A DNA stretch of 64,000 bases from assembly GCA_009602725.1 (NCBI GenBank), contig WELB01000025.1, positions 453,276 to 517,275 on the forward strand, read 5' to 3'. Shown piece after piece: positions 8,739-32,800 of the stretch; the stretch's first letter is position 1, and each line of letters begins with the position of its first letter. Below the pieces are notes generated by a model. It saw only the letters and a list, made by a program, of their open reading frames with translations, had not been told where the DNA came from and did not search any database. The DNA is from Spirogloea muscicola. Its lineage: Eukaryota > Streptophyta > Zygnematophyceae > Spirogloeales > Spirogloeaceae. The translations under genes and the position numbers were made by a program.

Positions 8739-11140
8739 ATGCGCCGCGGCCCGAAGCCCTTGCTCGACGCCGTAGCCCGGGCACGCAGATGGCGCGGCAC
8801 CCGCCTGCTGCTGGGCGTCCTGCTGGCGACCTCAGCCGCGCTTGTCGGCGCCACAGCATGGGGGTTCAGCCGAGCTTGGCGAGGAGCCCCGCCGCAGCTT
8901 CTGGCTGCCGTTCCCGCACCGTCCAGTCTCGCCTTCGCGGACGCTGGCAGGCGGGCCTTACTCCAGGCTTCCAGCAGCTCCGAGCCTCCGGCGGCGGGCC
9001 CGGAGGCGCAGCCCGCTGGCCCAGGCGCAGCCGCGGCTGGCCCGAGTGGCGGCCGCTGCGAGGACGTCTTCGAGGTGCCCACCGCCGCGCGCTGCGAGCA
9101 TGCGCGGGGCCGGTGCGCCGGCGGCGCCGGCCTCGTGAATTACGCCTGGCTGCACTTCTGCTTCCTGGCCGGCAGCCCTGCGCTCTCGGTGCCGCTGCTG
9201 GCAGCGCTCGTGGTGCTCGCCTTCTACCTCCTGGCCGAGACGGCGGAGGAGTACTTCTGCCCCGTGGTGGCGCTCCTCGCCGACCTTCTCCGGCTCGGCC
9301 CCAGCACAGCCGGCGTCACGCTCCTCGCCTTCGGCAATGGGGCTCCTGACGTCTTCTCCTCCCTGGCTGCCTTTGCGGCGGGTGACACCAAGGTTGGCTT
9401 TGGTGGGTGCTGCATTGATGACCCGCAGCACCTCCAACGACACTGCAACGGACCCGCAGTGCTGGCAACTAGACCAGCGCTTGTGCGGTTGAGGAACGAT
9501 GCAGGTGTATGTGTCACTGGTCACTTAGAGCCGGCTGCCAGTCAGTCTGGCATACAGCCTGGTCCTTGCTTCAGCAGCTGAAGCCGTACTCATCGACGCT
9601 TGCTGCGTCGCCCCTGTGACTTGCAGGTGCTATACTAAGCGCGGGAGCTTTTGTAACAGCCTTTGTAGTAGGCTGCATCTCTGTGTTGGTCGGCCCATTC
9701 GAGATTTCGAGGCCGGCATTCCTAAGAGACATCCTTTTCTACATCATCGGCGTCGTCCTCCTGGCAGCTCTATACTCTGGCAGAGTGGTCCATCTCTGGC
9801 ACTCTGCAGGAATGCTGCTGTACTATCTACTGTTTGTGGCTTACGTCGTCTACTCTGACTACCGCAATGATGTGACCAAGGCACTGATGCCTCAGGTATA
9901 GCTGCTTGTCTGGTCCTCCTCCTCGTACAATGACTCAGGTGATTTGTGATGTTCTGCTGCCGAGAGGCCATTTATGAGTATGCCGGTTCTTTGCCTTGCT
10001 CATTTATGACAGGTCGTGGAGCTCATCCATCGGGACGGCCTGTCAAGAAGGCATTCCGTGGAGAGTGGAGTTGCATGGAAGCATGTGACGCAGGAAGGTG
10101 GGCCTTCTTTGCCAGGAGATAGCAAGACAGGCTTATCTCCACTGGCAAGGCTGCTGTCTTGGCAGGAGGATGAAGGCAACACCTCCACCATTGACAAAGT
10201 AACAACTTCACACTCGTTGACATGTACGTTGCGTCCATGTGACATGCTTTTCACAGGGACAAGCCTTCGAGCAGAAACTCTGGCCAGATTGCCGCTTTGT
10301 GTTTCATTTGGCATCTCGTGCAGTGAAAGAAGAGCCATCTCAGCGTTGTAGAGTTGCTGTTGCTGACAGGTGCAGATGATGCTCCACCTCCCTTTTGATA
10401 TAATGAGGAGGGTAACAATACCAGCAGTGGAGGAGTCCTGTCACGGCAGCATCTACGCGGCAGCAAATGTTACATTCTGTCCGTTGCTTCTGCTCTACAT
10501 CTGCAACCCTGTCATACCCTTTGATTATCCTTTGGTGGTGTTCGAAAATTCAATGGGCGTGGTTCCATTGTGGAGCCTGGTTCTCCTTCAAAGCTCAGGC
10601 CTTGGCTTGGCGCACTTCTTGTCATCGAAGGTTGGGCGACCATTTGAAGCGGGCCGGAAGTTCAGCATAGTGGCTTCCTTTGGCATGAGCGTCTTGTGGA
10701 TCAACCTCATTGCGAGAGAGCTTCTTCAGCTCCTGTCCACTATTGGGCTAGTTCTTGGCATCTCTCCGGCCATCCTAGGAGTCACCGTTCTCGCTTGGGG
10801 GAACTCTGTAGGAGATCTTGTTGCAGATGTAACAATAGCCAGAGCAGGTCAGCCTACAATGGCGGTGGCAGGTTGCTTTGCAGGTCCCATGTTCAATATG
10901 CTCCTAGGCCTTGGCTTACCTATGACCTTGAGATCTATTGCAGCTTACCCACGTACTTACGAGCTTGACCCGCACCCCAACATACCCATTGCCATTGGCT
11001 TCCTGCTCACCAGCCTTGTAGGATCCCTCGTCGTCGTCGCTTGCTGCGGCTTCCAGATCACCAAGTGGTGGGGCTGGTGCCTCATCACCATATATATTGT
11101 ATTCATGGGTGTCAGCCTAATGGTAGAAGGCACTTTGTGA
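8739..11140 (+). CDS. CCX: Cation/calcium exchanger (CCX, NCKX-like), complete
   Basis: Membrane antiporter of the Ca2+/cation antiporter superfamily, related to plant CCX proteins that exchange K+, Na+ or Mn2+ across endomembranes or the plasma membrane. Four exons close in phase: 8739-9402, 9627-9895, 10013-10198, 10370-11140 (629 residues). An N-terminal membrane segment is followed by a Cys-containing stretch and hydrophobic helices. Alpha-1 repeat: GVTLLAFGNGAPD (about 192-204). A charged cytosolic loop without helices is encoded largely by exon 3. Alpha-2 repeat: GVTVLAWGNSVGD (about 510-522), then C-terminal helices. GN.x.xD in both alpha repeats is the CCX/NCKX ion-binding signature. 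The start was chosen for its GCCGCC ATG context; an in-frame ATG at 8604 would add 45 residues. Exon 4 could start at 10370 or 10376. Confidence 0.9.
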
Positions 11141-11215: not shown

Positions 11216-12170
11216 CTTCTGCTCGTATGTTGTTGAAGTCCAAGCAAAAAGTCTCCTGGGTGTGGGGAAGCTGTTCCCTTTTGGGAGGCAAAGGGCCAGG
11301 TGCAACATGGAAGGGTTGCCTTGAAGCAGCTCATTGGTCACCTCGCAAATAGGCATAGTGTGTGCCACGGCACACACCTCGCCAAGCACCAAACCATAAC
11401 CCGCATGCCTGCGCTATTGCTGGGCATCGGAATAAATAGCGTCTGTAACAAATGAATGGGCCAGAGCGGCTGAGTACAAATGCGAGCACATTATTTGAAA
11501 GTAAGCCACCCCGCTGCTAGGCTGACCTCTCTGAGGCCTTAACTTTGTGTAGCCCGATTCAAGCATTCCATTGTCTTCTGCATAAATAGTGTACTGGCTC
11601 GGCTTGGTCTACTTTTCACCTCCACGCACCTTCTCTCTATAGCCACGGGTCAGCACGTAGAAGTCGCTCACCGAATCGTGAATGTCGGTCAGCTTCCAAG
11701 TACCACAACAAGGAAGCAACAATTGTCTTGTATGCGTCCCTCGGTCTCGCTCCAGCGCTCCCAACCGATTGAGTCGCTGTGTGCTTTAGCTGTGTGCCAC
11801 CACCCTCTCCTGGAAGCGTCCTTCTCGCTGTGTGCTTTCTCCATCAGCGTTTCTGGCCCTTCCGGAGTTTGGCATTTCTCGTCTGGGCTGGCCAACCACA
11901 GCCATCGCCCTCTACTGGAAGAGTCTCTTCATTTAGTATCAAGAAGAAGACGCTTCCAGGAGAGGGCGGTGGCTGGGAGAGGCCAGCCCAGAGAAAAGAA
12001 TGAACGAAGTTCAACGGGGCCAGGGAAAGCGCTAAGCGATTTCGTATTCCTGCTTTTTGCGCCTTCTGGCCCTTTCAGACCTTGTACACTCCTCTGGGCT
12101 GCCCTCTCACAGCCATTGCCTTACATCGGCAAAGCTGTTTCTGTTTCTTCTTCGGATTCTATCTCTCGCC
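11216..12170. repeat. Intergenic stretch with family A units
   Basis: Between CCX and the plastid HSP90 gene. 11216-11640 has no gene. Family A hairpins occur at about 11885 (GGGCTGGCCAACCACAGCC), 11970 (plus orientation) and 12093 (GGGCTGCCCTCTCACAGCC), with the usual TTCAGACCTTGT-type flanks. No coding evidence. Confidence 0.6.
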
Positions 12171-12177
12171 CGTCTGG

Positions 12178-12190
12178 GAGTCTTCTAGAA
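12178..12190 (+). promoter_or_regulatory. Heat-shock-element-like site upstream of HSP90C
   Basis: GAG-nn-TTC-nn-GAA (GAGTCTTCTAGAA), two perfect and one imperfect 5-bp heat-shock units with correct spacing, about 210 bp upstream of the proposed HSP90C start. Function is inferred from motif and position. Confidence 0.4.
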
Positions 12191-12401
12191 GGGCGGCCGG
12201 TGGCGTGCGCGCCGTGCCGTGCGATGTGCTGCCCGACGAATGCACCGCGCCGTCCGATGCGGCCGCGTGTGTCGGCCCATCCCGGCTAAGTCACTGCAGT
12301 GCCACGACAATCCCCTGCTGCTCGATCGCCGCCGCCGCCGCCGTCGCCGCCGCCGCCGCCACTGCCGCCGCCGCNGCGCGGCAGCACTCGCGCGCTGCAG
12401 C

Positions 12402-15400
12402 ATGGCGCCCGCCGCCGCCCTGGCCTTGGCTGCCGGCCTCCGCGCCCCTGTGCCGCTGCCCAATGCCGCCGCCCTCGACCCCGGCTCCGTACGCGAGGTG
12501 CGGAGCTTCGTTAAGTCTGTCTACTCCGTCAAGGGCGCCCGCCCGCCACAATGGATTGCCATCTATCTCCGCCCCGCTGGGGCTCGTCCAGCAGTTCATT
12601 CACGGACGCTCATTGCTCTTGGCGTCCCATGGTGGCGTGCTGGTTATGAAAGCTACTCCGCGCTCGTCGCCCTGGACTGCGTCCCACTTTGAGGCCTGTG
12701 ACTTGTCGTGCTAGGCCACGGGTGCGTGTTGAGGGTTTAAGGTTTGACAGGTCTGGACCACTCGATATTGAGCTGACTTCCAAGTCCTTCCCTCTTGCGC
12801 TTGCAGACCACTGCACGCTGCGCGTCCGGCTCGATCAAGTTTGGCAGAGCGAGCGTCCAGGGCGCGAGGGGGCTGTCCATCGCAGGCGGCCCTTCGGCCA
12901 GGCTCCTACTGGCCCAAGTCCAGCTGAAGCACAGCCAGCGTAGGCAGGCTGCTGCATCAATCCGCTGCGAGGCGACGGCTACTGCTGCTGCACCTCCGGC
13001 TCAGCAGGAAGAAAAGTACGAGTATCAAGCAGAGGTGAGAGGGCTATCAGAGTGTTATTCGTTGCCTAGTGTACATGAAGCTGGACCTCCGGGGCGGGCA
13101 ATCGATCTTGACTATGAGATTTGATGAGCGCAAGAAGAAATTGGTAGAATCGAAGAGCTTGGCTTTCAAATATGGCTTAGTTGCTTTTGAGTTGAAAGTA
13201 GGCTTGCTTGTAAATTCTGAAGTGCAGACAAGATAAGATAACCCCGAAATACTGAGGAGCTTGGAGCCTCCAATGTCACAGGTTAGCCGCCTGCTGGACT
13301 TGATTGTGCACAGCCTCTACAGTCACAAGGAGGTCTTCCTTCGCGAGCTTGTCAGGTGAAGGCCTGTATCTATCAAATACGCCATACAGCCTTGGCGTTT
13401 GCAGACTCCCGCTTCTTGAGATATGAGCTCAGAGCTCAAGAGTGTAGGAACCTGATCTCTCCCTCTGGGGGAGGGGGGTTTTGGGAGGGAAGCTGGGGCT
13501 TGGATAACTTGCTCGCCTTTTCTCAATCTATCAGGCTTGCGTTTCATATTCTCCTCTGAGGTCTTCGGCTGGCAATCACTAGTTACCTAAGCTGTAATGT
13601 TGTCAGCTTGATCAGGCCAATCAGTAATATTCAGGTCTTGGGGGACCAGAGGCTCTGGTAGGCTAGGGGACTGCACGAGAGACGTTAGCCTCAGAATCGA
13701 AGAGGCTGTCAAAGTGCAGATGACATGAAGTGCAGGTTATTCTGGTCTGAGTTCACGTCAAGTAGCTGACAACTGGTGGCAGTGATTTGTGATATAGCAG
13801 CTGGAGTGATGTTGCAGCAGCTTTGATTTCAACATGCGTAGATCGCATGCTTAGATCAAGTCTGCCTCAGACAAGTGCAGATTACAGCGTATGATTGAGT
13901 CAATGCTTGTACTTAGTTGGCTCTTCATGACTCCTGTGCTTGATACCCCATGTCCTACCTGCTTTTGCAGCAATGCCAGCGATGCATTGGACAAGTTGCG
14001 GTTCTTGTCCGTCACGGATGGCAGTCTGCTTGCCGACGGCTCCGATCTCGTCATCCGAATAAAGGCTGACAAAGCAGCAGGCACCATTACCATATCGTAA
14101 GCTTCAGGTTCTCCTCTTCCTCTTAGTAGAAATCTCTCTGTATACTTAGAAATCTCTCTGTATACTGAGGAGCCTTCTCAAGCCCAGTGTCAGTGCAACA
14201 CCATATACTCTTCGTGCCTGCATTGGCCACTCTGGTGCAATCATCTGAAACGAACCACCAATTGTGAAAGACAATCTACACCATATCGTATGGGTGCTGG
14301 CTCATAGAACCCGGCTCAGAGATGTGCTTATTGTTTTTGCGCTGATGCCAGGGACACAGGAATCGGCATGACCAGGCAAGAACTCCAGGACAGTCTGGGC
14401 ACCATTGCGCAGAGCGGGACTGCCAAATTTGTCCAGGCATTGAAGGTCAGTGCAAGATTACAACTGCTGCTGACAGTCCAGCCTAGTGGCGATGTGTAGC
14501 TGACAATGGCTTGTGATTTGTTCACAGAATGTATACCAGAGTTCTACCAGAATGAGAGTTGCAGCAGGTGTGATTGATAATCAATGTGATTATTATGCAG
14601 GACAATAAGGACAACGAGGGCTCTGCTAAGGATAACAACCTCATTGGTCAATTTGGGGTTGGCTTCTATTCTGCGTTCCTGGTTGCTAACAAGGTACACT
14701 CTCTAGCACAATGCTGGAGCAGTGAGTAACAAGAGAGCAGCTGCCTGAAATTCTCACCTTGCAGGCACCAGTCAGTCCACGTCGTCACATGTCCATGTCG
14801 GGGATGACAAGATAGATTTGAGCCAGTTACTTTCAAAAAAGTATTGGCAACCTAGAGTGCCTTATTGCTTAACAACCATTGTGCAACTTCATAGCTAAAT
14901 TCATGACAGGACATGTAGGTGAAGTCATGACATGCTTTGCTGGCCTGTTGAATGGCTCTTGAATATGCACCACTTCACCGGTGCCTCGGGTATCTGCTTG
15001 CTCATCTTTGGATTCGTCATTTTCACAGAGAGTAGCAGTGGCTCGGGTTGTCTGGCTGAGGCACATCCTATCTGCAATTTGCAGGTCACGGTGTCCACGA
15101 AGAGTGCTAAGGACGACAAGCAGTGGGTGTGGGAAGCAGAAGCAGAGCAGAGTAGCTACGTGATCAGGGAGGAGACAGATCCCGAAAGGAAGCTCCCCAG
15201 AGGAACCTCCATTACGCTTCACATTAAGGTGACTGTTTCCAGGGCTGCTTCTGTCAACCATCATTGGCACCGCCACAATGAGACTCCTAGTGGTGTGTTT
15301 GCGTTCGGTTTGTCTCGATGTCGGTTGCATTGAGTCACACGACTGCCTGTCAACAGTCAGGACCTTGACATAGGTTGATTCTGTAGTTTTTTGGATTCCA

Positions 15401-18400
15401 CATCTGAATTCCTAGTGACAGTTTTCCCCCAATTTCGTATGTGAAAGAGTAATGTCAAGAGCAGCTTATCCATTGCTGGTTACATAAGGAGTGGTTGTTA
15501 GTCGTTCAGCAAAATAACATTTACTAAATAGTGTTTTGCAAGATGCTACTATACAGCAGACCTAGGGTTAAATTTTGTTCAAGACAGAACTCTGAGCAAC
15601 TTATCAAGAATTGTGTCTCTGAACAGGCTGACGACGTCGGTGAGTACACAGATCCTAACAGGATTGAAGGCCTTGTGAAGAACTACTCTCAGTTCATCTC
15701 CTTCCCCATCTACTCGTGGAAGGAGCTTTCACGAGATAAGGAGGTACTTTATCAGATTGATGATGTCGACTTTCAGTCCTTGTAGTGGCAATCCATTGTT
15801 TGGTCTGGTCAAGCATCATGAGCAGCTGAATATGGTTACTTATTTGTAACCACTCATGCTGCAAGTGACTCTCCTCAGGAGGAAGTTGAAGAGTTTGCCA
15901 TGGCCAGTCCTGTAGCAGTCAGCAAGTGTGTAGAGCCTTTAAGAGACCACTCACTATGGACTGCTAAATTGAACAGGTGGAGGAAGACGAGGAGGTGAAG
16001 GAGGGCGAGGAGCCCAAGAAGAAGGTGAAGATAGTGAACACTCAATTTAGTGGAGACTGCAATGTCACCTCCTTCTGCAGCAAGGAGAAGCACTTTACAT
16101 GTGCAGTTTCCCATTTGCTGTTGGCTGCACAGTGCTCTTGCCTGAAGTAAAATGTACCCCTCTCATCTCTCAAGTCTTTCACACATCACCTCTGCAGAAG
16201 AAGACAATTCAGGAGAAGTACTACGATTGGGCCCTTGTGAATGACACCAAACCAATTTGGGTAAGTAGCGATTGTTGCAATACATAAGTGTGTGAGCACT
16301 TGTGGGGCATGGCCCTGGTTTGAGAGGTAGTAGTCCAGCACATGTTTTCCAATCTTCCTGCAGTGGCGGACATCTTTAATTGAGAGCTTCAGGGTGCTGG
16401 GTTAGCCATCTGTTGCTTTTGAACACTCTATGGTGATGTCCCTACTGCGGCTGATGCAGATGAGGTCGCCAAAGGATGTGGCTGTGGAGGACTACAATTC
16501 GTTCTTCAAGAATACATTCCAGGAGTTCCTTGACCCCATGGCTTACACACACTTCACGACTGAGGTACTTCACAGCCATCCAGTAGTTTTAAGTGGTCGT
16601 GCACAGTTACTTCTTGCTGTTCCTGCGCCATTTGACACTCTGAAATGGAATAATAATCACCGTGGAGGAATAGGTATGCAACATATCAAATTTCCTCCAG
16701 TTTACTGCACCCTCATGCACTTCACTTGTGACTTCCCAAATGTGGAAATCAGGAAGAGACCACTGATTGTCTTCAGCTCATGCTTAGTGCGTGACGCTGC
16801 TGTACTGCAGGGAGAGATTGAGTTTCGTAGCCTGCTCTTCATTCCAGGGATGGCCCCCTTTAATCAGGACGAATTGATGAACCCAAAAAGCAAAAATATC
16901 CGCCTGTATGTGAAGCGCGTCTTCATCTCCGACGAATTTGATGGCGAGCTTGTGAGAGTCTATTTTCCGCCCCTCACCCACTCGTCCAACACAGATCAAC
17001 ATGCGTTTTGAATTTTCAGGCAAACAGAGGCAGACCTTCAGAGTTACTGCATGCATCACTTGCAAATGCAGCTATATGGCTCCTAAATCTCCGATGACAA
17101 GCGCAGTGGTATGAGGTCATATACAATGTAACGACCTCCTATGTAGCCCAAATTGACATCCTGACACCCTCTGGTTTATGTATGCTTTCCTTTGCTCTTA
17201 CTTGCAGTTCCCAAGGTACCTGAGCTTCATCAAGGGAGTGGTTGATTCTAATGACCTCCCTCTGAACGTGTCCCGTGAGATCCTCCAGGAGAGCCGTGTT
17301 GTATGTCTATATCCCCTTGTTCTTGACTGTCAAGGAGGCTGCCTGAGCTGCACATTTGTTGTGTTGGCTTCAACTCCTTGGATGTGTATGCTTGCTAGCA
17401 TCTCCATTGGTATCCTATACTATGTGCATCTGCACCTCATTTTGGCTTGGCAGCTTAAGGTAGCATGAGTTAGCAATTTTGCCCGACAAATGCAGCTCAA
17501 TATTATCAACGCATAAGGAATAACCCTTCCACAATGACTTATCCAGGTTCGGATAATGAAGAAAAGGCTCATTCGGAAGACGTTTGACATGATTGAGGAG
17601 ATTGCTTCAAGAGAGAAGTCCGAGGTATGAGTCTCTTCAGCAGCAATGTGGCTTCGATGTTGGTGCTTGGTTTTGGTGGAATGCTTTGTGTAGCCCTACG
17701 ATAGCTTGCTGACGTGCAGTTTGCCAATCCTAATGTGCTCAGTGTGACCTTCATGTAGTTACCAGCAGTCTGGCAAGTAACTGCCATTGGAGTAACAAGT
17801 TGTTAGCTGCTTCATGAATAGATGCAATGAGCTCGTTGCTGTGCTCCGCACACTTCAAGAGGAGGCAGGCACTTAAGAAGCAAGAGTCGGTGTTCATGCT
17901 GTCCAGTGGCTGAGAGTGGTCGCTGCCATGATGCTGCACTTGCAGGACTACAATACATTCTGGAGCAGCTTTGGGAAAAACATCAAGTTGGGCTGCATCG
18001 AAGACTCTGCAAATCACAACAAATTAGCTCCTCTCCTACGATTTGCCTCGTCGAAAACAGATGGAGACGAATTGATCAGCTTGAAAGATTACATTGGGCG
18101 AATGAAGGAAGAGCAGAAGAGCATCTACTACCTGGCAGCTGACACGCTGAAGTCTGCAAAGAGTGCCCCTTTTTTGGAGGCCTTGTCTAGCAAGGACTAC
18201 GAGGTATGCCTGGTTGTTGTGTTGCTTGTGCCTGACTGTAAGCAGACTGGGATATGCTTTCACTGCTGCAACTGCAAGACTGTGTGCTTGACTCAATGTG
18301 TTGGCTGGTTCCTATCCATGGTCGGAACATTACCAGGTCTTGTTCCTCGTGGAGCCCATTGACGAGGTGGCCATCACAAGTTTGGCATCTTTTGAGGACA

Positions 18401-19977
18401 AAAAGTTTGTTGACATAAGCAAGGAGGACCTGGACCTTGGTGGTGAGTGACATCACAACCTTAGAAGTTGGCAGCTGATCGGAGTTAGAGCTATTTGCTG
18501 AACAGTCTCAGGATTGTGCCTTAAGATATGCACTTTATAAAAATCTGTTGCTCCCAAGGATCGCATAGGAAGTCCTTTAGGAGTTAATGTTTGTCCAAAT
18601 TTACTTCCTGTGGACCATGGGCTTCCAGGCAATGCTTACTGCAGAGTACAGGCACATTGGGCAATACTTGGTAGGCACTGCAACACCAGGCTTAGCTCAT
18701 AAGCTTGCTGTTGACTAAGTCGACTGATTTGTCTGCAGGTGGAGAAGATGAGAAGGAGAAGGAGAAGCAGCTGGAGAAAGAGTATCAGCCGCTGTGTGAC
18801 TGGATGAAAGGGGCACTAGGAGACAAGGTGGCCAAGGTCCAGATATCCAAGAGGGTCAGCTCCTCGCCGTGCGTGCTTGTCTCCGGCAAGTTTGGGTGGT
18901 CAGCTAATATGGAGAGGTGGGTTGGCTTCTCAGGAGCCTTTGCGACTCATAGTAAGGGTGACTCTTTCCCTGCATCTGTCATTGTGACGTGCATGAAAGC
19001 TCAGAGCTACTTTGGCCTGTCGACACAGGACATAGACCGTAAACCCAGCATCACCAGGTTGGGAGTGGCATGTCCAACCCCGCACGTTGCTCCTGGCGCA
19101 GGTTGATGAAGGCTCAAGCCATGGGAGATGCATCACAGGTGGAGTTCATGAGGGGGAGACGTGTGCTGGAAGTCAACCCAAACCACCCCATCTTACAAGA
19201 CCTCAATGTACTGACATATCCTTGGTCCTTGCCTCGCCCTCCGCTTGTGAATGGAGCTCTTATTTCCAGCCGATCTCCTTTGAAGCTGTTGATTACCCCA
19301 CCAATTGGCTGTCATCTCTGCTGTCTGCCTTGGAAGCTGCAGTCTTTATGCCTGGGTGACATCTGGTGCATGGCTCCCCACTGAGCCAGCACCGTCTTCG
19401 CCAAGTCGTGCAGGAGCTAGCTGTGTAGTGCGGGTGCGTTTATTGCTAGTAGGTGGCGGAGGCTTTGTGTGAGGTTATGTCACAAGTGAAGGCATGATGC
19501 TGAAATTAGACGAACTCAATGCAGGTGACTTGCAAGCAGTCACCAAATGATGCGCAAGCGAAGCAATTGGTGGAGTTGCTCTACGAGACGGCTCATCTGG
19601 CGAGCGGCTTCACGGTGAGTCAGTGGTCTGGAGATGAAGTGGGCGTGCCCTTGCGCAGGCGGAGCTTTGGCAGAGCTTCTGGGGAACTTCCCAATACTGC
19701 AGTAGCTGCCTATGTTGCAATTGACCCGTTGCTTTTCCCTCACTTACGGAGCCTCGCATCCGGCGGCGTGCATGTGCAGCCGGAGAACCCGGCAGACTTT
19801 GGAGGCCGCATCTACGAGCTGATGGGGCTGGCGATGCTGGGCGGCAAGAGGCCGGCAGCAGAAGGTGCGTCGCCTGTGGCGGATGCCAGGCCGGCATCGT
19901 CTGGCGAAAGTGGGGAGGGTGAGAGCACGGTGGTGGAGGCCTCGGAGGTGAGGACGGAGGGAGACCCCTGGAAGTGA
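12402..19977 (+). CDS. HSP90C: Chloroplast HSP90 chaperone (HSP90C), 20 exons
   Basis: ATP-dependent stromal chaperone (HSP90C/CR88 type) acting in plastid protein import and folding. About 815 residues. Exons: 12402-~12509, 12807-13034, 13282-13355, 13971-14096, 14352-14445, 14601-14693, 15085-15228, 15627-15743, 15977-16024, 16198-16260, 16460-16564, 16811-16951, 17208-17300, 17547-17624, 17946-18203, 18337-18442, 18739-18916, 19102-19207, 19525-19614, 19780-19977. All junctions from exon 2 on close in phase. An Ala-rich transit region precedes [24 protein letters not shown] ATPase motifs are [17 protein letters not shown] and [11 protein letters not shown]. Middle-domain motifs include [13 protein letters not shown] short acidic linker ([15 protein letters not shown]) replaces the longer cytosolic one. 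There is no MEEVD end; it ends [11 protein letters not shown], as plastid forms do. The exon 1 donor (GTTAAGT at 12510) is one of three in-phase options. A single N lies at 12375. Confidence 0.95.
14127..14166. repeat. 20-bp perfect tandem duplication in HSP90C intron 4
   Basis: TAGAAATCTCTCTGTATACT occurs twice head to tail within the intron after exon 4; it looks like a simple local duplication. Confidence 0.85.
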
Positions 19978-22329
19978 GGCCACACCACGGCAACCCCTTG
20001 ACCCAGTCGCTCTGTGCGGACCTTGGAGGCCAGGAAACTGGCCATCCAACGAGCGGCCGGCCGGGGGGTTATTGGGGGGGGGTGCTTAGACTGTGTACAA
20101 CGGCCATGCACGGCCATGCTCCATGATTGAAAGAGAGAAGGCGCGCGGTGCGCATGAACTTGAAGCGAGGCCATGATTGAAAAAGCACGATTCCTCTCAA
20201 TTGGCCGAGACGGCCAAGTACAGTAGCGTAGAAGGCGCTCGGTGCGCATGAGAATGAAAGGGGGGGCCAACTGGAGCCAACAGGAAGAAAGTGCTCGCCC
20301 ATTGAGAATAGGGGCTGGAAAAGCCAGCCCAAAAAAGCATCAACAAAGGACGAGAACTGGGCAGGGGAAGCGCTAATAGAAACGATCACACAAAGAAACA
20401 GGGGTTGCTATTTCAGAGCAAGTCCGGTCGGGGCCGGTGGCGGCGGCTGTCTCGACGCGCCGCAGCGGTGGCGGCCTGGCACAGGCCCGGCTGCTGTTGT
20501 TGGAGGAGGAGCGGAGAGCAGAGTGGACGGGGGGAAAAGCCCAGGGGGCATGCCCAGCGCTTTGGCGCTGGGCCCACACGGGGTCGGTCACCTGGCGGCG
20601 GGCCACTCGAGAGCAACCCCAGAGAGAGTGGAAGCAAGGAAGGGTACGGGGGGGGATGGGGGCCCTCGAGCGGGTTGGGCAAGGCGAGGCGGCAAGGTAC
20701 ATAGCTGCAGATGTGGGCTGCGCAGCCGGGCTACCGCTTAGCCACGCGGCGGCGGGTGGGAAAAGCAGGTCATCCCAACGGACTGTGAGAGAGAGCTCGC
20801 TCTTCCACACCTTGTCAGTTATCTTTGGGCTGACTTTCTCTTCCTTTTCACGGCCCTCGCTCCCTTCTGGAGAGCCACTTTCTTCTATGGAGGAGCTCAC
20901 TTCGGTCAATGTTGACGAAACGTCTCTTCCAGTAGAGGGCGATGGCTGTGATTGGCCAGCCCAGAAAAAGGATTGTAAGGGCAATGTAAGGCAATGGCGC
21001 TGTGAGAGGCCAGAACCAACGAAAGAACAAGGTCAGAAAGAGCCGCAAGGTACAAAAAGCACGAAACTCCTCTCCCTGACTTCCGTAAGAGAGAGCGTAA
21101 GCTCTTCCACAGGGGGCGAGGGCTGGGATGGGCCAGCCCACGAGATACTGAACGAGGCCCACAGGAAGCAGCTCGTCCAAGGAGCGAGGCTGGAAAACAA
21201 CAGCTCTTATGATATAAGGCAGTAAGGAGAAGGAAGAGCAGCCCGCCCAAGAGAGTGTAGGAGGGAAGCAGCTCCCTTGGAGTGCCAATTCTTCTTCTGG
21301 AGAGGGGGGAGGGCTGTGAGAAGAAGTGGCACTCCTAATTGGGGCAAGGGCTGTGAGAGGCCAGCCCGAAGCAAGCAGCTCTTCCGATGTTAGGCAATGT
21401 GAGAGGCCAGCCCACAAGAATGCAGAAGGCACAAGGCAAGGAGTGGACAAGGAGTGAACTAGGTCCAGACAGGAAATGATCTTTCAAAGTATGACAATGG
21501 CTGTGAGAGGCCAGCCCGAAAGAAGCACCTCTTCAAATGAAAGGCAATGGCTGTGAGAAGAAGAAGTGGCTCTCCCAGTGAGGGCAAGGGCTGTGAGAAG
21601 CCAGCCCGAAAAGAATTGACAAGGGGCGAAGGGGCCAGACTACGAAGGGGCCAGAATTGCAATTCTCAAAACAGGGGTTAGGAAAGGCCAGCCACAAGGA
21701 AAGTACAAGGGCCGGAAGGTGCAGATAGCACGGAGTTCTGCGTGACTTCTGCGAAGAGAGAGAAGGCGCGCGGTGCGCATGAAATTAAAGCGAGGCCAAT
21801 TCAAGCCATTACATTGTTCAGGCAAAGGGGATGAAGGAGTCGAGATGAGAGCGGGGAAAACGATGAGGGCTCGTCCACAGATAGAGGAGCTCGCCCATAG
21901 AAAAGATGGCGCTGGCAGAAGCCAGCCAGAAAAGAATGGACAAAAACCAAAGAGCCACAACAGGTGCCGGAAAGAAGGGAAATACACAGCCAGAGGACAG
22001 AAACCAAAGGGGGCGGCGAGGGCTGTGGAAGAAAGAAGAAGAAGAAAGTGCTCGCCCATTGAGAGTAGGGGCTGGAAAGGCCAGCCCAGAAAAGGATCAA
22101 CAGGAAGGCCAGCCCAGGGGAAGAGGGAGTGGACGAGCTGCGAAGAAGTGGGGCGGAGAGAGGAAGAAAGTGCTCGCCCATTGAGAATAGGGGCTGGAAC
22201 AACCAGCCCGAAAAAGAATGAACAGAGTACGAGAAGGGGGCCAGGGGAAGCGCTAAGTAACAGAAACAAAGCTGCTACGAGACACTCAGTAACCCCTGCT
22301 AAGCAGCCGCAGATCAGAGATGCTGGGCT
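19978..22329. repeat. Dense family A array between HSP90C and the STEAP-like gene
   Basis: About a dozen family A units in the plus orientation: 20312, 20944, 21120, 21350, 21498, 21590, 22066 and 22190 are clearest. The fullest units (20285-20390, 22036-22100, 22160-22270) read GTGCTCGCCCATTGAGAATA, then GGGGCTGG..CCAGCCC, then AAAGAATGAACA and GCCAGGGGAAGCGCTAA. Two or three inverted family D fragments (20131-20175, 20220-20260, 21760-21822) contain GGCGCGCGGTGCGCATGA. 20400-20760 is GC-rich without a recognised gene. Confidence 0.8.
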
Positions 22330-22339
22330 NNNNNNNNNN
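22330..22339. other. Assembly gap (10 N)
   Basis: Ten ambiguous bases followed by a C run, about 110 bp upstream of the STEAP-like start. Sequence across this point, including the promoter, is not reliable. Confidence 0.95.
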
Positions 22340-22449
22340 CCCCCCCCACTACTCCTGTTGACGTACGTCCCGCTCCGCCATCACAACCCACCACTGGGAC
22401 GACGTCCCGCTCCGCCCCATTGCCGCCAGCGCCAGGCCCCGCCAAGGCC

Positions 22450-25310
22450 ATGGCGGCGCTGGTGGACCAGGCCGACGGGCGGTGGGAGCGGTACGTGAAG
22501 AAGGGCGAGGACGCGGCGGCGGCCGCGCTGCCCCCGCTGCCGCTCTCCCGCACCTCCTCCTCCGCGCTCGCCGAGCAGCGCCGCGTCGCCGTCGTCGGCA
22601 CCGGCGCCCTCGGCGCCGCGCTCGGCAACCGCCTCGCCCAGGCCGGCTACGCCGTCACCTTCGGCTCCCGCTCTGGTACGACACAGCCTCTCCCCTCTCC
22701 GCCGCTCCTCAAACGACGGCGAGCCCCTCCAACGGTCGCTATGCACTCCCCAGTCGCCTCCTTGTGCCAGCTTCGAGTGCTGCTCCGCCGATCCAAGTCT
22801 GGAAGGCGGCGCACGCCGGCCCCTGAGCCGCAGACCTCGCTCGTCGTGGGCTGCCTCGTGTCGGCTGCCTCCGTCGAGCTGGGCGCCGAGACCGGAGACT
22901 GGGCGTTGCCGTCTGCCGGGGCTTTGCTCGCCGGGGCTGCCCGGAGACGTCCGTCCCAATGGGTTTCTCCGTCCGTCTGTCGAGTGCTCCGCCAGCTCGG
23001 CCGACGGTCCGGACGCCATCGGCAATCCCTTGGCACCGCACGCCCACTTCTGGGGGTCTTGACAACCCCCTGGGGCCCCGACACCACTTAATGCTCACCC
23101 TCCCCGGCTGTGCTCTTGTGAGCTGACGGCCCGACACCGCGTGGCTGCTGACAGGCAAGACCAAGAATGCGGTGCGAGGCGACTGCTTGGTGGTGTCCGT
23201 CAAAACTGCCATCTTCATGGGAGACATTGTCATCCTCGCGCTCCCGCCCAAGAGCATCTCCTCGTTCGTGACTGGTGGGGCTTCCTCTTGCACGCTCTTT
23301 ACTCCTGTGCTGCCAGCAGACGAGCTGCTCCTCTGCTATCTGATAGAGCGCTCGCCTTTACGGTCGGCCCCCCTGCACCGCAGTGGTCTAACTCGTACAA
23401 GGTCGCTCATGTGTCACCCCAGTCGATTTGTTGCTCACATGTCGTACGGTGTATGTTGTGGCCGACCTTCCTGTCTTTGGAGTGCAGAGGCTGGCCATGC
23501 TTTGGAAGGCAAGGTGGTCGTGGACACCAGCAACCCCGGGGTCTATTCCGAAGATGGCCAGTCCATGGGAGAGCTTGTGGCGGGCCTTCTTCCCGCATCG
23601 CTCGTCGTCAAGGCCTTTAACACACTCTCTGCTTACCAGGTATCACAGCCCAAAGCGATTTTGAGCCAAGTTTGAGCCAAGTCGTTTGGCCTGCCGATAG
23701 CTCGGAAGCCCTCGAATGAAGAGATTTTAAGAGGGCCAGTCAGTCAGACTTTGAGAGCACGTGCACGCTGTGAAACGTGTTCTGAAGCTCGGTGTATCTC
23801 CTCAGAGCTTCACTAGTTGAGAGCTTGTACAGTTAGACAATGTCTGCTGCATGGTAGCTTCATGACTGCTAAGTGCTCACTATGGCATGGGTTGCTGCTG
23901 GAGCAGATCAATGCAGCAAGCACGAGCGCCGGCCCGAAGGTCGTTGAGCTATGCAGCAACTCCAGCAGAGCAAAGATGCTGGTCGCCAACATGATTTATG
24001 ACATGGGCCTGATGCCAGCCGACTTGGGCAGTAAGTACAGTCTACCTTGCTTGGGTCAGTCTCTAGTGCTAGCCACGAACACAGCCCTTTGAAACACCTT
24101 CAGTCAAAGGGGCTTAATCATTGCGTGAGCGCTTAGCCTTGTCTGAATTGCTAGTCTTTTTACAATGTACGTGCTCCCTATTGACACCAGTCTGCGCTTG
24201 CTTACATGTATCTTCCTGCAGGCATTAAGGCAGCAGGAAAGATGGAGAGAAAGCCCTTCATATTCTATACTAAGTGGCGCCAAGCCCTTCTTGTCAGCCT
24301 CGCCCTCTTCTTGCCATGCTTCGCTTATGTGGTGGTGAGGGACGTTCATTATGGAGAAGGCTGGTCTCATATTCCCTTGTCAGGGGTATCGGGAGCCGTT
24401 GGATGGCTGAGCATCAACCTGATCACTGCCACGTACTCTGCTGGCTTGATAGCCACTGTCCTTTCAAAGCCCCTCCCTAAGTGGCTCATCAGTTGGCTGG
24501 AGATCCGGAAGCAGCTTGGCCTGCTGGCTTTCTTCTTTGCTGCCTGGCATGCTGCCGGCGCCACGCTCATCTTGAGGGATGGCTACAAGCACACGGCAGC
24601 TCTATTCGATGGTGGTGAGTTTCTTCTCATGGCCGCTCTTTTCGCAAGGAAAGCCCTCAGTGGTCCTCGCTAGTCGGCATAGCTTGGGCTCGGCTGAACT
24701 CGTGGTGCCTTGTTCCAGAGAGCAAGATGCTTACAGAATTCCTCTGTTGACCTGCCTACAGCTGGGCGATTGACGGCCTTGGGGGAGAGTTCCCTTCTTG
24801 TCGGCCTGCTCGGCCTGGCGTGTCTGGCCATTCTGAGCATTACTAGCCTCCCCAGCGTTGTGGCCTCTCTCTCCTGGCGAGAATGGGACTTTGTACACAA
24901 GAAGCTCGGATGGCTGTCGGTCATCCTTTCCCTCGGCCACATTGTTATCTTTGCGACGCCACTTGACTGGCCACACAGTGGAAGATGGCAGAGGTATTGT
25001 GCCACGTTCTCCACCCATGGCCTTTGTGAGCTGCACAGCATCTCAGAGGAAGTAGTCAAGTTGCCAGCGGCACTTTCAACCCCTCCTTGTCGTTGCTCTT
25101 GAAGCTTGGGCTCAAGGTCGGACTCTTAATAGTGCTCATCACTGTGGCACTGTCTGCTGCAGGTCTTTGCCACCTGCGACCATCTTCATATTGGCTCCCA
25201 TCTCAGCTCTGGTAGTTTGCAAATTGCTATTGATATTGTCCAAGTACTTATCTGCCATGCTTAGGAGGATGCGGAGGTATCGCACAGTCAGCACTGAAGT
25301 GCCAGTCTGA
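22450..25310 (+). CDS. STEAP-type metalloreductase (FNO-like + ferric reductase TM domains)
   Basis: Predicted NADPH-dependent membrane ferri-/cupri-reductase. Seven exons all close in phase: 22450-22675, 23155-23274, 23488-23639, 23907-24030, 24222-24614, 24762-24993, 25163-25310, giving 464 residues (animal STEAP2-4 are about 450-490). The N-terminal F420H2:NADP-oxidoreductase-like Rossmann domain has VAVVGTGALGAALG (about 46-59), then GDIVILALPPKSISSF, GKVVVDTSNP and SLVVKAFNTLSAYQ. The junction MPADLGSIKAA leads into a six-helix ferric-reductase domain (about 215-450). Its landmarks are WLEIRKQLGLLAFFFAAWH (His317) and SLPSVVASLSWREWDFVHKK, then LGWLSVILSLGH (His398); the two histidines match the STEAP haem-ligand positions. 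Order and landmark motifs follow animal STEAPs along the whole length. The ATG lies in GCCATGG context. A related bacterial-like FNO + YedZ fusion is the alternative; the WREW..F..LGW block favours STEAP proper. Confidence 0.9.
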
Positions 25311-26160
25311 GGTGATTGAAGGGGGTGTGTGATGTGTACTGTGGTGGTTGTGTCGGGGCTTGCGTTGAGCTCATGTAGAGTAAATAAAAGGAGGTCTTTC
25401 TTAGCTCCTGACTGTGCAGCAACTCGCTGGCATATCGTGAAGACTGCTGTTAGCCTCAGCCTTGTTGCCTCACATGAGGCCCTTGGCCCAGGTTTAGACC
25501 AATAATGGGCTGTGCTGAGCAGAAATTGTACATACTCAAGAAGGGCATCGTCATTGTCATCGATGCCCTCATTTTTGTCTACAGATAAGACCTCAGCTCA
25601 CCACAACTACATGCTCCAATGAGGACCACTTTCCGGATTTGCTGCTCGTTCAGCAAGCAAGAAAAGCAGGTAGAACGCAAGAGCCTACGGCAACTGTCAT
25701 CACAATGTTGCCTGGCCGAAGCAGTGTACTAAACAACAGCGCCATTGAATCCACCGAAGGGAGGGGATCAATATGTTCAGAGAGGATGCCGGAAAGGAAT
25801 GCCAGCCGTGGCGACTGTCAGTGCTGGTAGATGTCATAATGCTTGTCAGAGAAGCATTGTGTTCACCTCCAGCTACAATGCTGCATACCAAATGTCCGGC
25901 AGTAGTGTAGGTTGCAGTCATGGCAAGGATTGCAGTGTGCTATGGCTTGCGGGACGGCTGTTGACCTTTATTGACTTCATTAACATAAGCTTGTATATTG
26001 CTAATTTCAATCGTCCTGAATCCGAGCTAGTATCTGTGCTAGCTCCCTCCACTGTCTTCATCCGGGTGTCATTTGTTTGATAGAACGTGCTCCGTCTGCT
26101 TACCGTATGTTGTACTCCCTTGCTAAGCCATCTCAGTTTAGGGTTTAGAGCTTAGGTTAG
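25311..26160. other. Intergenic, no gene seen
   Basis: Follows the STEAP-like stop. AATAAA-containing text near 25381 (GAGTAAATAAAAGGAGG) may mark its 3' end. No convincing open frame, RNA gene or repeat beyond this. Confidence 0.4.
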
Positions 26161-26989: not shown

Positions 26990-29150
26990 ACCTTAGCTTT
27001 TCACAGACCTCGCCCCCTTTGGATGAGCTAACATTTTTCGGGCTGGCCTTCACAGCAGAAGAAGGTGAAGAAGGACGCTTCCAGAAAGGACGCAGCTTTT
27101 CACAGTACTCCCCCACTTCAGCCCTCGCTCCCTTCTGATGAGCTTACTTTGTCATCTTTTCGGGCTATCGGGCTTTTTCTTTTCCTTTTCTTTCGTTTCG
27201 GGCTGGCTGTTCACAGCCCTTAGCCCCCTTTGGAAGAAGCCACAATCTACAGGACCGGTCTTACTTAGCCATCGCCCTCTAATCTGGCCGCGCTTGCTTC
27301 CTCTAATGGAGAAGTCTTGTTTCTTGAAGACAAGCACAAAATATAGAAAGGAAGCACAAAAAAAGGAGAAGAGGTATATTGCAGGAGAAGAGCTCTTGCA
27401 AATGAAGAGAAGGATGGGGCGATGACTGTGAATGAATAGACAAGGTCCGATAAGTGCAACACGCAGCTATGGCTACCATGAAAGGTTGCTCAACGACCCC
27501 AGCACCAGCCGCAAGTGGGATGAAGAGCCGAAGTCAAACAGCTCTATCATGGTAAGGCGATAGCAGAAAGAGAAGCCCAAAAGGAATGGCCAAAAAGCAG
27601 TGGCCAGGCTTGTGCCATAAACCATTTGCAAGTACAAGTGGCTACAAGAGGAAGAGCGGAGTAGAGTAGAGGCAGAGATTCTTGCTTGAAGTATCTAAGC
27701 GGGCCGATTTCATTCCAATGACGCAATGAGGTAGTGAAGGACGCTTCTCACTTGATGGCGGGCAGTGAAAGCAAGGTGGTGCGTGTCAGACTTACAAACA
27801 CTTACCAATCTTCAGAAAACAATCTTCCGTAAGTATCATCAGCTCTTCTACTCTGTGAAACGGAAGACCTTTCTTGTGTCTCATTATCACAAATCAGCTG
27901 CCAGATGGAACGAGCGGTTAGACAGAAGTCAATCCGCTCCTCAGAGAGGGCGGCGGCAGAATGGTTGGCCGAGAGAGGTGCCAGCCCGAAAAGGGAATCC
28001 GATGCACATACTCATTCCGACCTGCGGATGTTACTTGGGGTTCCTGAATAGCTGTTTGCATAAGCTACTTCCTGTGCCTGGTGCGATGTGCTTCATGTGC
28101 TTCCCCCAGAATTTCTTCATCCTGTTTGTGCTGGCCGTGCGCAGTGCCACTCTCTCTGGGATAGATGTTCTGCCAAAGAAATGCGGCTGGGCGAGCAGCC
28201 AGCAGGCGGGGCTTGTCAATTGAAGAGCACTTTCTCAATGGAGGTGGTGCCAGAGCAAGTGGGAGAAGGGAGGCAAAAGCGTGTAGTGAGCAATGGAGGG
28301 CCAATACGGCCAAGTCCAAAAAGCACACCTGAAGAATAAAATATACCTGCTGCTATGCATTCAACCCCTTTGTCACCAAATAGAGCTCCCCCACCTGTCT
28401 GGTGTGGAAAGCATGAGCCTGAGCTCGCTGCAGGCAATGTCCAGCCTCCTTGCGAAAGCCGCACTCACGTTGTTGGACCTGATCAAACACATGGGGAAGA
28501 CCCAAAATGACTTGAGCCTCCGAGGCCTTGGGGCTAATTTTGAGAGCATAGGATATGAGCGTGCGTAGATGTCAATACGGCAGTAGCTGATTTTGTGTGT
28601 AGATCCTTCTTGTGGGTCTGAAGATCCAACTACGCCATGATAGCCGGCGTCAATTGTTCCGGAGCATCCATATAAGCTATGCTATGCCGCTGCACGGCTG
28701 GACCTCCGCTTCGAAGCCTGATGGCACAGCCATGGCAAAGCTCCTCGCACTCAACAGCGCGCCCCTGGCTGTAGCATGACTGCAAAAGTGAACAAACGAT
28801 CCTACTGAGAAAGAGGCAGAGCGGGGGGACCCATTCCTGGAGTGGCGATGGAGGTAAGATCCACTAGGTTCTACGGGGACCCTCGCCCTCCAGCATCTTT
28901 CACAATGTCCTGCATTGTCGTCTTCTCCTGCTGCCGCAAGCCTGGCCTGTGCCCCCGCTCGAGCAAGAAGGAGAAAGGGATGAGGAGGGGTTGTAGAGAG
29001 AGAGTATGCAGCGATCTCTCGAGTTGCGTGTGCTGATGGCGTAAAAAGCAAGTGACTATTCGCTAAGACGGCAGCAAGGGGCGCTCAATAACCTCTAGTC
29101 AGGAGATGCAAGTCGGAGCTAGCAAGCTAGCAAGTAAGACTTTTCCAGCT
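26990..29150. other. Gene-poor stretch with scattered family A fragments
   Basis: Family A-like hairpins at about 27040 and 27199 (GGGCTGGCTGTTCACAGCCC). The remainder, including a 152-codon open frame at 27765-28223, shows no recognisable domain or splice-supported exon series. I see no gene I can defend. Confidence 0.45.
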
Positions 29151-29740: not shown

Positions 29741-29848
29741 GCTAAGGACAGGAGGGAGCGCTCGTTTGGACGGCGCAACGGCGGCGCTCCCGCCCGTCGT
29801 CCCGTCGGCGACTCGTCGCCCGCGCTCCCGCCCTAGCTGCAAATTCGG

Positions 29849-32800
29849 ATGGGGGGGCCCCTCCCCACCCAAGGAGCTCCTGCGGCGACGCCGGGCCGAC
29901 GTCCGCCGTCGGGAGGGCCGAGCTCGCCCCGGCGCGAGCTCCGCCGAGGCGAGCGCCGCCTCCCGCGCCGCCCGACGCNGCTCCAGCTCGTCTCGCCCTT
30001 CTTCGCGCAGCAGCGGCGGCGGCGAGAGGCTGGCGATGCTGACGGCGGCGGCGGCGGCGTCGGCGGCTGCGGAGGCAAGCGCAAGCCTGCCGTGCCACAG
30101 GGTACCGCCGTTGACGGCGAGGACATTGACGACGACGACGCCTTCCATGACAACGCGGTGAGCCGCCGGGAGCAGGTGCAGCGGGCGCAGCCACGGCAGG
30201 CCATCTGGCCATCTGCTGCCATGACGGCTGAGGGCAGTCTTGCAACCCAATTAGGTGCTCCCGCTAGTGCCACCTGGGTGCCACTCTCAGCATTGACATC
30301 AGGTCGACAGCCCAATGTCGCTATCGTCCTGAGAGCTGCATGTTGCTCTGCTTGCAGCAATCGCCGCCAAAGAAGCCGAGGCCCGGCGGGAGCCAGCTCG
30401 CAGTGCAGCCGACATTTGCCGTCAAGCAGGCGCTGCCCCTCCACAGCAGCCCGACGCAGCCCCGGGCGCCAGCCCAGCTCGGCAGCGACAAGCGCTCGCC
30501 GGTCCTGCAGGCACCCACTCCGCCCACCAGGGACGCGCCTCGCCGGCTGGATCTCAAAGCCACGGGGATTGCCACGCTGCAGCCGCCGCCGGCGGCAACC
30601 AAAGAGAAGCTCGTCGCAACTTCCGCACAGCCAGGAAGGCCAGTGCTCGCTCCTGTAGCAGCCCCTGCGTTCAACGCCGAGGAGCCCGCAACTCAGCTGC
30701 TGGGCTCGAAGCTGGAGGAACCCAGTGAATCTGCACCAGTACCCCTTCAGGACGCACAGGTCAAAGGGGCTGCACCACCGGGCAGGGATCCAGACGTGCA
30801 GCAGTGCAGCAAAAGTGGCAATGTCTCACATGAAACGCCGAAGTGGACGGAGCCTTCGTCGTCATGGACACCTAATGGTTGTACCATCACCAAGCCATCA
30901 TCTAATTCCTGCGGCAAGCAACCCGCACGTGGCCCGCCGTCTCCTGTTCCGCAAGCAGAACTGTGGACAGCCAAGCACCGCCCGCATGTAGTTGCAGACC
31001 TTATCGGCAACTCCTCACAGGTGTGATCTTGTCATCCTTTGTAATCGTTAACCACTGTTGTTAGGGTTCCTCGCTGTGCACATTGCAAAGCAAGGCTGCC
31101 TCTTGTCAATTGGAGCGACTACAGATTATGTAGTCCATCAGGGTAATTCAGCGGACAAGCGTGTGCGACGCTCCTATACTTGGGCTGTGATTTCCACCTC
31201 TTTGCAGATCCAACGCCTTCGGCAATGGCTGCTAGATTGGGACAAGCACCATGGCCATGGCAGTCACAAGCAGAACTGTCAGAAGGGTGCTGGCAGAGGA
31301 GGTGTAGGCAGGAGCAAGGCCGGTGACAATGACAAGAAGGCTGTGCTCCTGTATGGCTCTCCGGGCCTAGGCAAGACCAGCGCGGCAATTCTTGTGTGCC
31401 GAGAGCTTGGCTACAGCTGCATAGAGGTTCACATCCTGCTTCACTCGACCTCCCTCCATCTAATGGGCACTGCGCGCCTTCTCCTCCTGAACTTGGTGCT
31501 TGCAACCATATCGTCTGCTTGCAGCAACAACGTGATGTCCTGCTACGTGGCATTGGCTTCAACCACCTTGTTGCCACCAACTAGTCGTTGTGCCGAAAGT
31601 AAAATCTATTCTGCCCTAGAAGCATTTTCACAACGTCACCATGACCTCAGAACACTCTGGCCTGCAGGTCAATGCTAGCGACTCTCGAGGAAAGGCCGAC
31701 AGAGATATCAAACAGGGTGTGAACGGGAAAGGAGTCAACACCTTTAAGGAGCTGATCTCCAACCAGACAATTAGTTTTGCCAAGGCGGGTCAGTCTTTGG
31801 GTCTAAGCTTGATGTGGGCAACCTTTGCTCGACTCCAGGAGCTGGAGCACACCTGCAAGCGTAGTTATTGTGCTTTATACGAGAAGAGACCGGTGCTGAT
31901 ATGCAGACACCTTGACCAACGACGATATTGTATTGCAGGGCGACAGAAGGTCGCTCTCATCATGGATGAGGTGGACGGGATGTCAGGAGGTGATAAGGGC
32001 GGTGTGCAGGAGCTCATACAGTCTATCCAGACCACCAAGATACCTATCATCTGCATCTGCAATGATAAGTACAGCCCAAAAGTCAAGTCCCTTGTCAACT
32101 CCTGCTTGGAACTTAGCTTCCAGAAGCCTATCAAAGGGCAGGTGAGCATACGAGAGTGTTGCAGTGCTGACACAATATCTCGTCGATGTAATGCAGCCAT
32201 GATGCATAGTGCGGAAAGGTTGACAACTGCTTAGTCTTTGTAGTATCTCACTGTCTGACTGTGTCTGGGCTTGCTGCTTCCCTCCCATTCAGGTCATGCA
32301 GAGGCTGCTGCAGATTGTGAGAAAAGAGGGCGTTCAGACGGACGAGGTCGGCCTGGTTACGCACAATTGTCACTGACACAGCCCTAGATGCCGCGTTTCA
32401 CAGTTGGTGCAGAATAGTCGTTGGGCAATGCAAGGCAGTGACAGACAGTGCCATGACATGACCAACCTCCACTCTGCAATTACTGTACATCACAACATGA
32501 TCATGTTTTGCATGTTGCAGGGGGCTTTGGATGTCCTTTTGGAGAATGTGCAAGGCGACATCAGACTTGCTATCAATCACTTGCAGGTAAGTGTGGCAGA
32601 CGTTCAGAGTTTCTCGCCTCTGGTAGTATACCTTAGTCTGCGGGTTTTCAATGTTGCTTGCAATTCTCCTGACCTTCACCCTGCTAGTTCCTGCACAAGA
32701 AGTGGATAGAGCTGCACAGAAATGCATGTTCATGATGCAAGTGTTAGACGTGGTTAAAGTAGAGGAAGAGCAGGAGCTTTGAGAAATTCACCGACACCGT

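Follow-up and report, generated by a model that had tools for sequence, protein, structure and literature searches.

We analysed a 64,000-nucleotide stretch of the genome of the green alga Spirogloea muscicola (contig WELB01000025.1, positions 453,276 to 517,275; hereafter the window, which lies on contig C25 of our numbering), whose forward strand carries a gene for a STEAP-type metalloreductase between positions 22450 and 25310. That this gene is real is confirmed by the data below, which also support the view that a nuclear genome of the green lineage encodes the whole STEAP2-4 architecture. We consider it probable that the product reduces metal with NADPH as a STEAP-type enzyme, that its branch split off before a glutamine of the animal proteins arose, and that it keeps the older state of the fifth transmembrane helix (TM5). 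No report of a green-lineage STEAP was found among the papers listed in literature searches, whose coverage left out most subscription journals. The gene and its product are laid out as follows.

22450-25310, forward strand: STEAP-type metalloreductase gene from ATG to stop, 7 exons, 464 amino acids (splice model, Pfam, PDB)
22450-22675, forward strand: exon 1, with the N-terminal tail, the GTGALG nucleotide loop and SRS (splice model)
23155-23274, forward strand: exon 2 (splice model)
23488-23639, forward strand: exon 3, with DTSNPG and VVKAFNTLSAY, including the putative tunnel serine S163 and adenine-stacking aromatic Y165 (splice model, alignment)
23907-24030, forward strand: exon 4, alternative acceptor 23904 (splice model)
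24222-24614, forward strand: exon 5, with the end of the FNO domain and TM1-TM3 (splice model, hydropathy)
24762-24993, forward strand: exon 6, with TM4-TM5 and the SLPSV and WREW blocks (splice model, hydropathy)
25163-25310, forward strand: exon 7, with TM6, the C-terminus and the stop TGA at 25308-25310 (splice model, hydropathy)
22573-24259, forward strand: FNO-like NADPH domain, about residues 42-220, coding span including introns (Pfam, PDB FNO-domain matches)
24266-25250, forward strand: six-helix ferric-reductase domain (FRD), about residues 223-445, coding span including introns (Pfam, alignment, hydropathy)
24506-24508, forward strand: codon for Arg303 in TM3, the YedZ/STEAP signature Arg, at STEAP4 R290 (alignment)
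24548-24550, forward strand: codon for His317 in TM3, predicted heme ligand, at STEAP4 H304 (alignment)
24896-24898, forward strand: codon for His384 in TM5, at STEAP4 Gln383, a His in bacterial MsrQ/YedZ-type domains (alignment)
24938-24940, forward strand: codon for His398 in TM5, predicted heme ligand, at STEAP4 H397 (alignment)

The exon set was reached by two routes, one through splice-site choices near the expected joins and the other through spliced alignment to the resulting protein, and both give the seven-exon gene of 464 residues that an earlier note on this DNA had claimed. All six introns are GT-AG. One-codon in-frame splice alternatives are present, for example acceptor 23904, which would add one Gln; acceptor 23907 was used as the option yielding 464 amino acids, and 23904 is equally compatible with the data. 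The start at ATG 22450 is supported because the three copies of the gene found in the assembly (see below) diverge upstream of it by indels, some of which are not multiples of three. The landmarks singled out in the earlier note (GTGALG, VVKAFNTLSAY and SLPSV..LSWREW..F) are all present in the translation, and its two membrane histidines, 317 and 398, align with H304 and H397 of human STEAP4.

Pfam places F420_oxidored (PF03807) at residues 45-132 (E=3e-13) and Ferric_reduct (PF01794) at residues 268-392 (E=2.6e-8), both above the cut-off. A PDB search returned human STEAP4 (6hcy) over residues 28-443 (E=3.3e-55) and human STEAP2 (7tai) over residues 43-454 (E=2.4e-51), with separate FNO domains and STEAP1 ranking below them; the STEAP4 and STEAP2 matches extend over both domains. 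Identity to human STEAP2 and STEAP4 spans 30-34%, with 138 of 408 aligned residues (34%) shared with STEAP4. The six expected helices coincide with peaks of a simple hydropathy scan at about residues 228-246, 270-288, 307-325, 350-368, 388-406 and 423-441; the scan also marks 87-113 and 141-163, which lie inside the Rossmann-type domain and were not taken as membrane helices.

An FNO-like NADPH domain followed by a six-helix FRD is the arrangement of animal STEAP2, STEAP3 and STEAP4 (PDB 7tai, 2vns and 6hcy; STEAP3 was compared by its FNO domain only, from the PDB list). The algal protein shares with them the N-terminal PF03807 fused to a six-helix PF01794, the nucleotide loop, the VVKAFNT-SA motif (STEAP4) with the FAD-tunnel serine (S163, STEAP4 S138), the TM3 Arg-Lys pair of the FAD site (R303 and K304 for R290 and K291) with its His, a predicted bis-His site for a single outer heme (H317 and H398), and the TS[LI]PSV and WRE blocks. 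R303 replaces the first heme His, as does an Arg in a divergent paralog on contig C207 (see below), and an Arg at this place in TM3 is the YedZ/STEAP signature (PMC3591440). An animal feature that is missing is Gln383 of the FAD site in TM5, where the algal protein and the C207 paralog both have His; because of this replacement, we file the protein as a STEAP-type variant and not as an ordinary animal-type STEAP. It also has the TM5 W-x3-H and TM3 Arg of MsrQ/YedZ, along with the outer His of TM3 and of TM5, but the membrane domain of E. coli MsrQ stands alone, whereas the algal one is fused to an FNO domain. With plant FRO, fungal FRE and NOX it shares the Ferric_reduct membrane domain (PF01794); those enzymes differ in carrying FAD_binding_8 and NAD_binding_6, both seen in a gene of the same alga on contig C68 and neither found by Pfam in the 464-residue protein, and in having more heme histidines (PMC3591440). 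The earlier identification as a STEAP-type metalloreductase was right in kind, by architecture and by most motifs, though incomplete.

A search of the 153-Mb assembly, whose copy counts are lower bounds, found two further near-identical copies on contigs C165 and C75, both with open frames and with all six introns in common with the window gene. The proteins are identical at 453/461 (C25-C165), 453/464 (C25-C75) and 456/461 (C165-C75) positions, and the ratios of nonsynonymous to synonymous divergence (dN/dS, NG86) are 0.076, 0.098 and 0.048 for the same pairs, with dS of 0.10-0.13; the three copies are under strong purifying selection. A more divergent paralog on contig C207 (L011:4228-6481; 226/440 identical, 51%) was modelled with eight exons, the model lacking a start and having a run of N upstream, and no near copies of it are among the genome matches listed. 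In both position and phase, four of its introns match introns 1, 2, 4 and 5 of the window gene, and these introns therefore predate the duplication that made the paralog. The surroundings of the gene recur as well:

12144-33720, no strand assigned: stretch collinear in blocks with C165 and, in part, with C75 downstream of the gene; homeologous segments (alignment)
16406-19977, forward strand: neighbouring plastid-type HSP90 gene, three exon open reading frames (ORFs) matched, inside the C165-collinear block (PDB)

Contig C165 matches window positions 12144-22329 at 87% and 22344-26126 at 86%, followed by ordered blocks to 33720. Contig C75 matches 22342-26133 at 87%, 27971-29034 at 73-75% and 29757-31274 at 85%, and is a run of N upstream of the gene. 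It is hardly conceivable that the gene is a contaminant, a pseudogene or an assembly chimera. A 10-N join does lie at 22330-22339, 110 bases ahead of the ATG, as a chimera might have, but the C165 copy sits inside 28 kb without N (213818-242000) and is collinear with the window on both sides; these explanations are ruled out by the collinear C165 and C75 copies together with the intact frames and the strong purifying selection on all three. The view of the earlier note that there is no animal or bacterial contamination is upheld by the collinear copies, the introns shared with the paralog, the HSP90 neighbour and an identity to STEAP4 of 34%, and its plant-gene context by that upstream neighbour, for which a PDB search ranks chloroplastic HSP90-5 first (E=5e-29; next entry 3.6e-14). 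While its STEAP identity stood, it had not noticed His384, the partly missing basic ring discussed below, the two near-identical copies or the divergent paralog.

Directly upstream of the gene, window positions 22163-22329 hold an interspersed repeat of about 170 bases; stretches resembling it are found, in both orientations, around the C165 copy, and others near the C75 and C207 copies.

The roles given to residues follow work on human STEAP4 (PMC6194020), carried over to the algal protein through the alignment. Nine of 15 cofactor-site residues of STEAP4 are identical in the alga (H304, H397, R290, K291, G294, K434, L362, S366 and S138). STEAP4 F359 corresponds to algal Leu360, and Leu also stands at this position in STEAP1-3 (PMC10659578); L255 is replaced by Ile and W140 by Tyr165. 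Another departure is at Q383, where all four algal copies have a His (His384 in the window protein) in place of the flavin-sandwiching Gln. Gln383 has been called strictly conserved in STEAPs (PMC6194020), and human STEAP2 and STEAP4, and likewise STEAP1 in its alignment, have Gln there. The outer loops of the algal protein are also shorter than in the human STEAPs compared.

The His at this position has a counterpart in bacteria, where the usual pattern of Ferric_reduct domains and of E. coli MsrQ is R-x13-H in TM3 and W-x3-H ahead of the outer TM5 His. A set chosen independently of this motif was obtained with PF01794 alone from 60 genomes of one phylum, which gave 41 places in 31 of the 60 genomes; 30 loci were returned, one of which (L113) overlaps an earlier set chosen by motif. 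W-x3-H-x12/13-H is held by 26 of the 30 picked ORFs and not by L153, L156, L157 or L163, and the picked ORFs of L156, L157 and L163 do not fit their listed length. Alignment of 26 loci (L152, L153, L157 and L163 left out) included one in the wrong frame (L156), leaving 25 rows. At the column of STEAP Gln383, His is found in all 25 correctly framed ORFs and in E. coli MsrQ, and the TM3 Arg is found in 22 of the 25 and in E. coli MsrQ, with Ser or Thr in the other three. A profile of 17 bacterial FRDs, which scores E. coli MsrQ at 267 bits, gives the two algal membrane domains 32.4 and 26.0 bits, against 20.5 for human STEAP2 and 13.3 for STEAP4. Other motifs set the algal and human proteins apart from bacteria: TS[LI]PSV occurs in 4/4 STEAP-type rows and 0/25 bacterial rows, TM3 has Arg-Lys where bacteria have Arg-Arg (Ser/Thr-Arg in three rows), the WRE block common to the algal and human STEAPs was not seen in the 25 bacterial rows, and in bacterial MsrQ the two TM5 histidines are one residue closer. 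By architecture and most motifs the algal proteins are thus STEAPs, and at the inner TM5 site they are closer to MsrQ. Among bacterial ORFs, L130, L131 and L132 combine a match to major facilitator superfamily (MFS) transporters with a Ferric_reduct domain of the MsrQ type.

Could the alga have joined an FNO domain to an MsrQ-like domain by itself, in convergence with the animal STEAPs? The resemblance of TM5 to MsrQ would fit, and the support of 89 for an algal-animal grouping (see below) is not decisive, but the shared TM3 Arg-Lys, TS[LI]PSV and WRE motifs and the single alignment that spans both domains make such an independent fusion highly improbable. Searches for possible components tell against it too. 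A scan of GTDB with the FNO half found 136 relatives, the best 80 of which were kept (best-segment identity 25-39%). FNO-like NADPH-dependent reductases of bacteria and archaea (PDB 4huj, 1jax) share the NADPH-binding domain with the algal protein, and differ from it in that none of these 80 loci has a fused C-terminal membrane domain, since the ORFs end no more than 233 codons past the start of the match (that of L072 breaks after 22 codons). Nor was an adjacent membrane gene found within the flanks of up to 2.5 kb (for 11 of the 80 the locus is under 5 kb), the best value with the 17-FRD profile being E 0.59 among 3612 ORFs.

Other searches covered further prokaryotic, viral and plasmid sequence. 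When GTDB was scanned for two STEAP membrane patterns, a search that sees only pattern-bearing proteins, 104 stretches matched and none was a relative at E<=1e-3. In 28 of 117 cyanobacterial genomes the full-length profile has matches, all within the NADPH domain only. Membrane profile A4 made weak partial matches in 5/200, 6/149 and 0/149 genomes of three phyla; this profile reaches MsrQ poorly (-2.6 bits for E. coli MsrQ), and the search that gave 0/149 had no positive control. Viral contigs gave 94 pattern matches and no relative, 141 plasmid records matched with none covering 80% of the query, and phages gave one short FNO match. No fusion of an FNO and a membrane domain was found in these non-exhaustive searches. 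A bacterial donor was considered and rejected, as the pattern, FNO, cyanobacterial, plasmid, viral and phage searches, within that reach, yielded no fused relative.

Two trees bear on the origin of the fusion. In the FNO tree of 85 rows, including 78 of the 80 GTDB loci (those long enough) and one plasmid FNO, the algal and human rows lie on one side of a branch with SH-aLRT support of 89; once the animal rows are removed, no bacterial row lies close to the algal FNO domain, the nearest path being 3.8 changes per site. The membrane-domain tree has 21 rows, 17 of them bacterial and chosen by the TM5 motif (16 of 22 loci and E. coli MsrQ), and because of that choice only its grouping, and not the motif, counts as evidence; the algal and human rows stand apart from the bacteria with support of 89/85. 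The tree proposed in the earlier note, with animal STEAPs and bacterial sequences, was in this way run with human STEAP rows and bacterial FNO and membrane rows, and the grouping of alga and human against bacteria came out with a support of 89. Together with the absence of a prokaryotic fusion from the searches above, the grouping favours a single origin of the fusion common to algae and animals, which may have reached both by descent or by transfer between eukaryotes.

STEAP has been described as metazoan and possibly derived from bacteria, the fusion of the NADPH domain not being predicted in bacteria (PMC3591440), a point that our searches do not contradict, and STEAP is reported absent from Dictyostelium (PMC4582194, PMC3777012). 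Such a patchy record is the pattern that horizontal transfer gives, and a complete STEAP gene might have come from an animal or protist and then have been duplicated and gained introns. We regard this as somewhat unlikely. The algal protein shares only 138 of 408 residues with human STEAP4, the path between alga and human in the FNO tree is about 3.5 changes per site, and the TM5 His is unlike the human STEAPs; that the C207 duplication is later than at least four introns speaks against a recent transfer, though not against an old one.

It is possible, and we suggest it tentatively, that the algal proteins are living intermediates between the MsrQ-type cytochromes of bacteria and the animal STEAPs. 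In an early eukaryote an FNO protein would have become joined to an MsrQ-like domain with the TM5 His, the green lineage would have retained this His, animals would later have changed it to Gln, and STEAP would be an old eukaryotic protein lost in many lines. Perhaps the inner site of the green-lineage protein has a different arrangement of flavin or heme.

As a STEAP-type reductase, the protein would work in the following way, with cofactor roles and topology carried over from STEAP4. The cytosolic FNO-like domain would bind NADPH and transfer hydride to FAD, which would be mobile. Once reduced, this flavin would lie between TM3 (Arg303, Lys304, Gly307) and TM5 (His384) on the inner face of the membrane, and its electrons would travel one at a time by way of Leu360 to a single b-type heme with His317 and His398 as ligands. 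The heme in turn would reduce a ferric or cupric complex at the outer or lumenal side. The last step is where a further alternative enters, namely that the fold is the same and the acceptor is oxygen, a quinone or an extracellular protein, as bacterial MsrQ serves MsrP. For MsrQ and bacterial NOX, short outer loops are reported to give versatile acceptors free access to the distal heme (PMC11031084), and for this reason we retain a non-metal acceptor as a rival. The algal protein has such short loops along with its MsrQ-like TM5 His, and it retains only part of the basic ring proposed to hold chelated iron in STEAP4. Even so, this alternative seems unlikely, considering that R221 (algal R247) is kept, that R413 corresponds to Arg413, that R326 and K330 occur close to where R314 and R318 would fall, and that the best full-length PDB matches are metalloreductases.

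Several points weigh against an early-branching metal reductase that keeps an older TM5. The tree supports of 89 are moderate, both trees carry long-branch warnings, the pairing of the two algal rows has support of only 61/23 in the membrane-domain tree, and the midpoint root of that tree puts L114, a distant bacterial row, on the STEAP side. The animal side consisted of human STEAP2 and STEAP4 and the STEAP1 alignment, so the older TM5 state is read from few rows, and the alga may instead have regained the His. At the FAD site, S384 is replaced by Lys385 and D148 by Ser173; the C207 paralog carries the same TM5 His and Lys as the window protein. Among the nine basic-ring positions of STEAP4, the alga has an Arg opposite R221 and R413 only. 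R237 corresponds to His257 and R245 to Gly265 (Lys in the C207 paralog), the loops aligning poorly; R320, K404 and R405 fall on Leu, Pro and Leu, and R314 and R318 fall in the gap of a shortened algal loop, with R326 and K330 near by, the alignment of the whole ring being uncertain. With the ring apparently incomplete, we place less confidence in a metal substrate than in electron transfer. Finally, all of the evidence comes from genomic sequence.

The alga also has a NOX/FRE-type set bearing FAD_binding_8 and NAD_binding_6, and its STEAP is therefore no stand-in for an absent FRE-type system. Other gene families occur in threes as well: NAD_binding_6 genes on C68, C300 and C314, a second Ferric_reduct triplet on C355, C271 and C197 (with no NAD_binding_6 match reported on those contigs), and an Nramp triplet on C186, C6 and C24, with further Nramp matches on C60, C27 and C28. 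We infer that these triplets fit the recent whole-genome triplication in Spirogloea muscicola (PMC10487979). Pairing of STEAP with Nramp is known in animal endosomes (PMC7972479); since the alga has several Nramp-type transporter genes, a STEAP-Nramp pair is possible there by analogy. Elsewhere in the window, exon ORFs of the sodium/calcium exchanger family lie at 8478-11140, upstream of the HSP90 gene, and an ORF with a nucleoplasmin-like (NPL) domain lies at 48696-49439.

An intact, selected and multi-copy STEAP-type gene in a green alga challenges the view of the family as metazoan and possibly gained from bacteria (PMC3591440). If the algal proteins are indeed living intermediates, STEAP would not be an animal acquisition from bacteria, contrary to what that source proposes. 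The His in TM5 is a natural test of the role of the 'strictly conserved' flavin Gln. For the organism, the gene would mean a second class of reductase beside the FRE/NOX-type enzymes in the metal biology of an alga that is probably close to the land plants.

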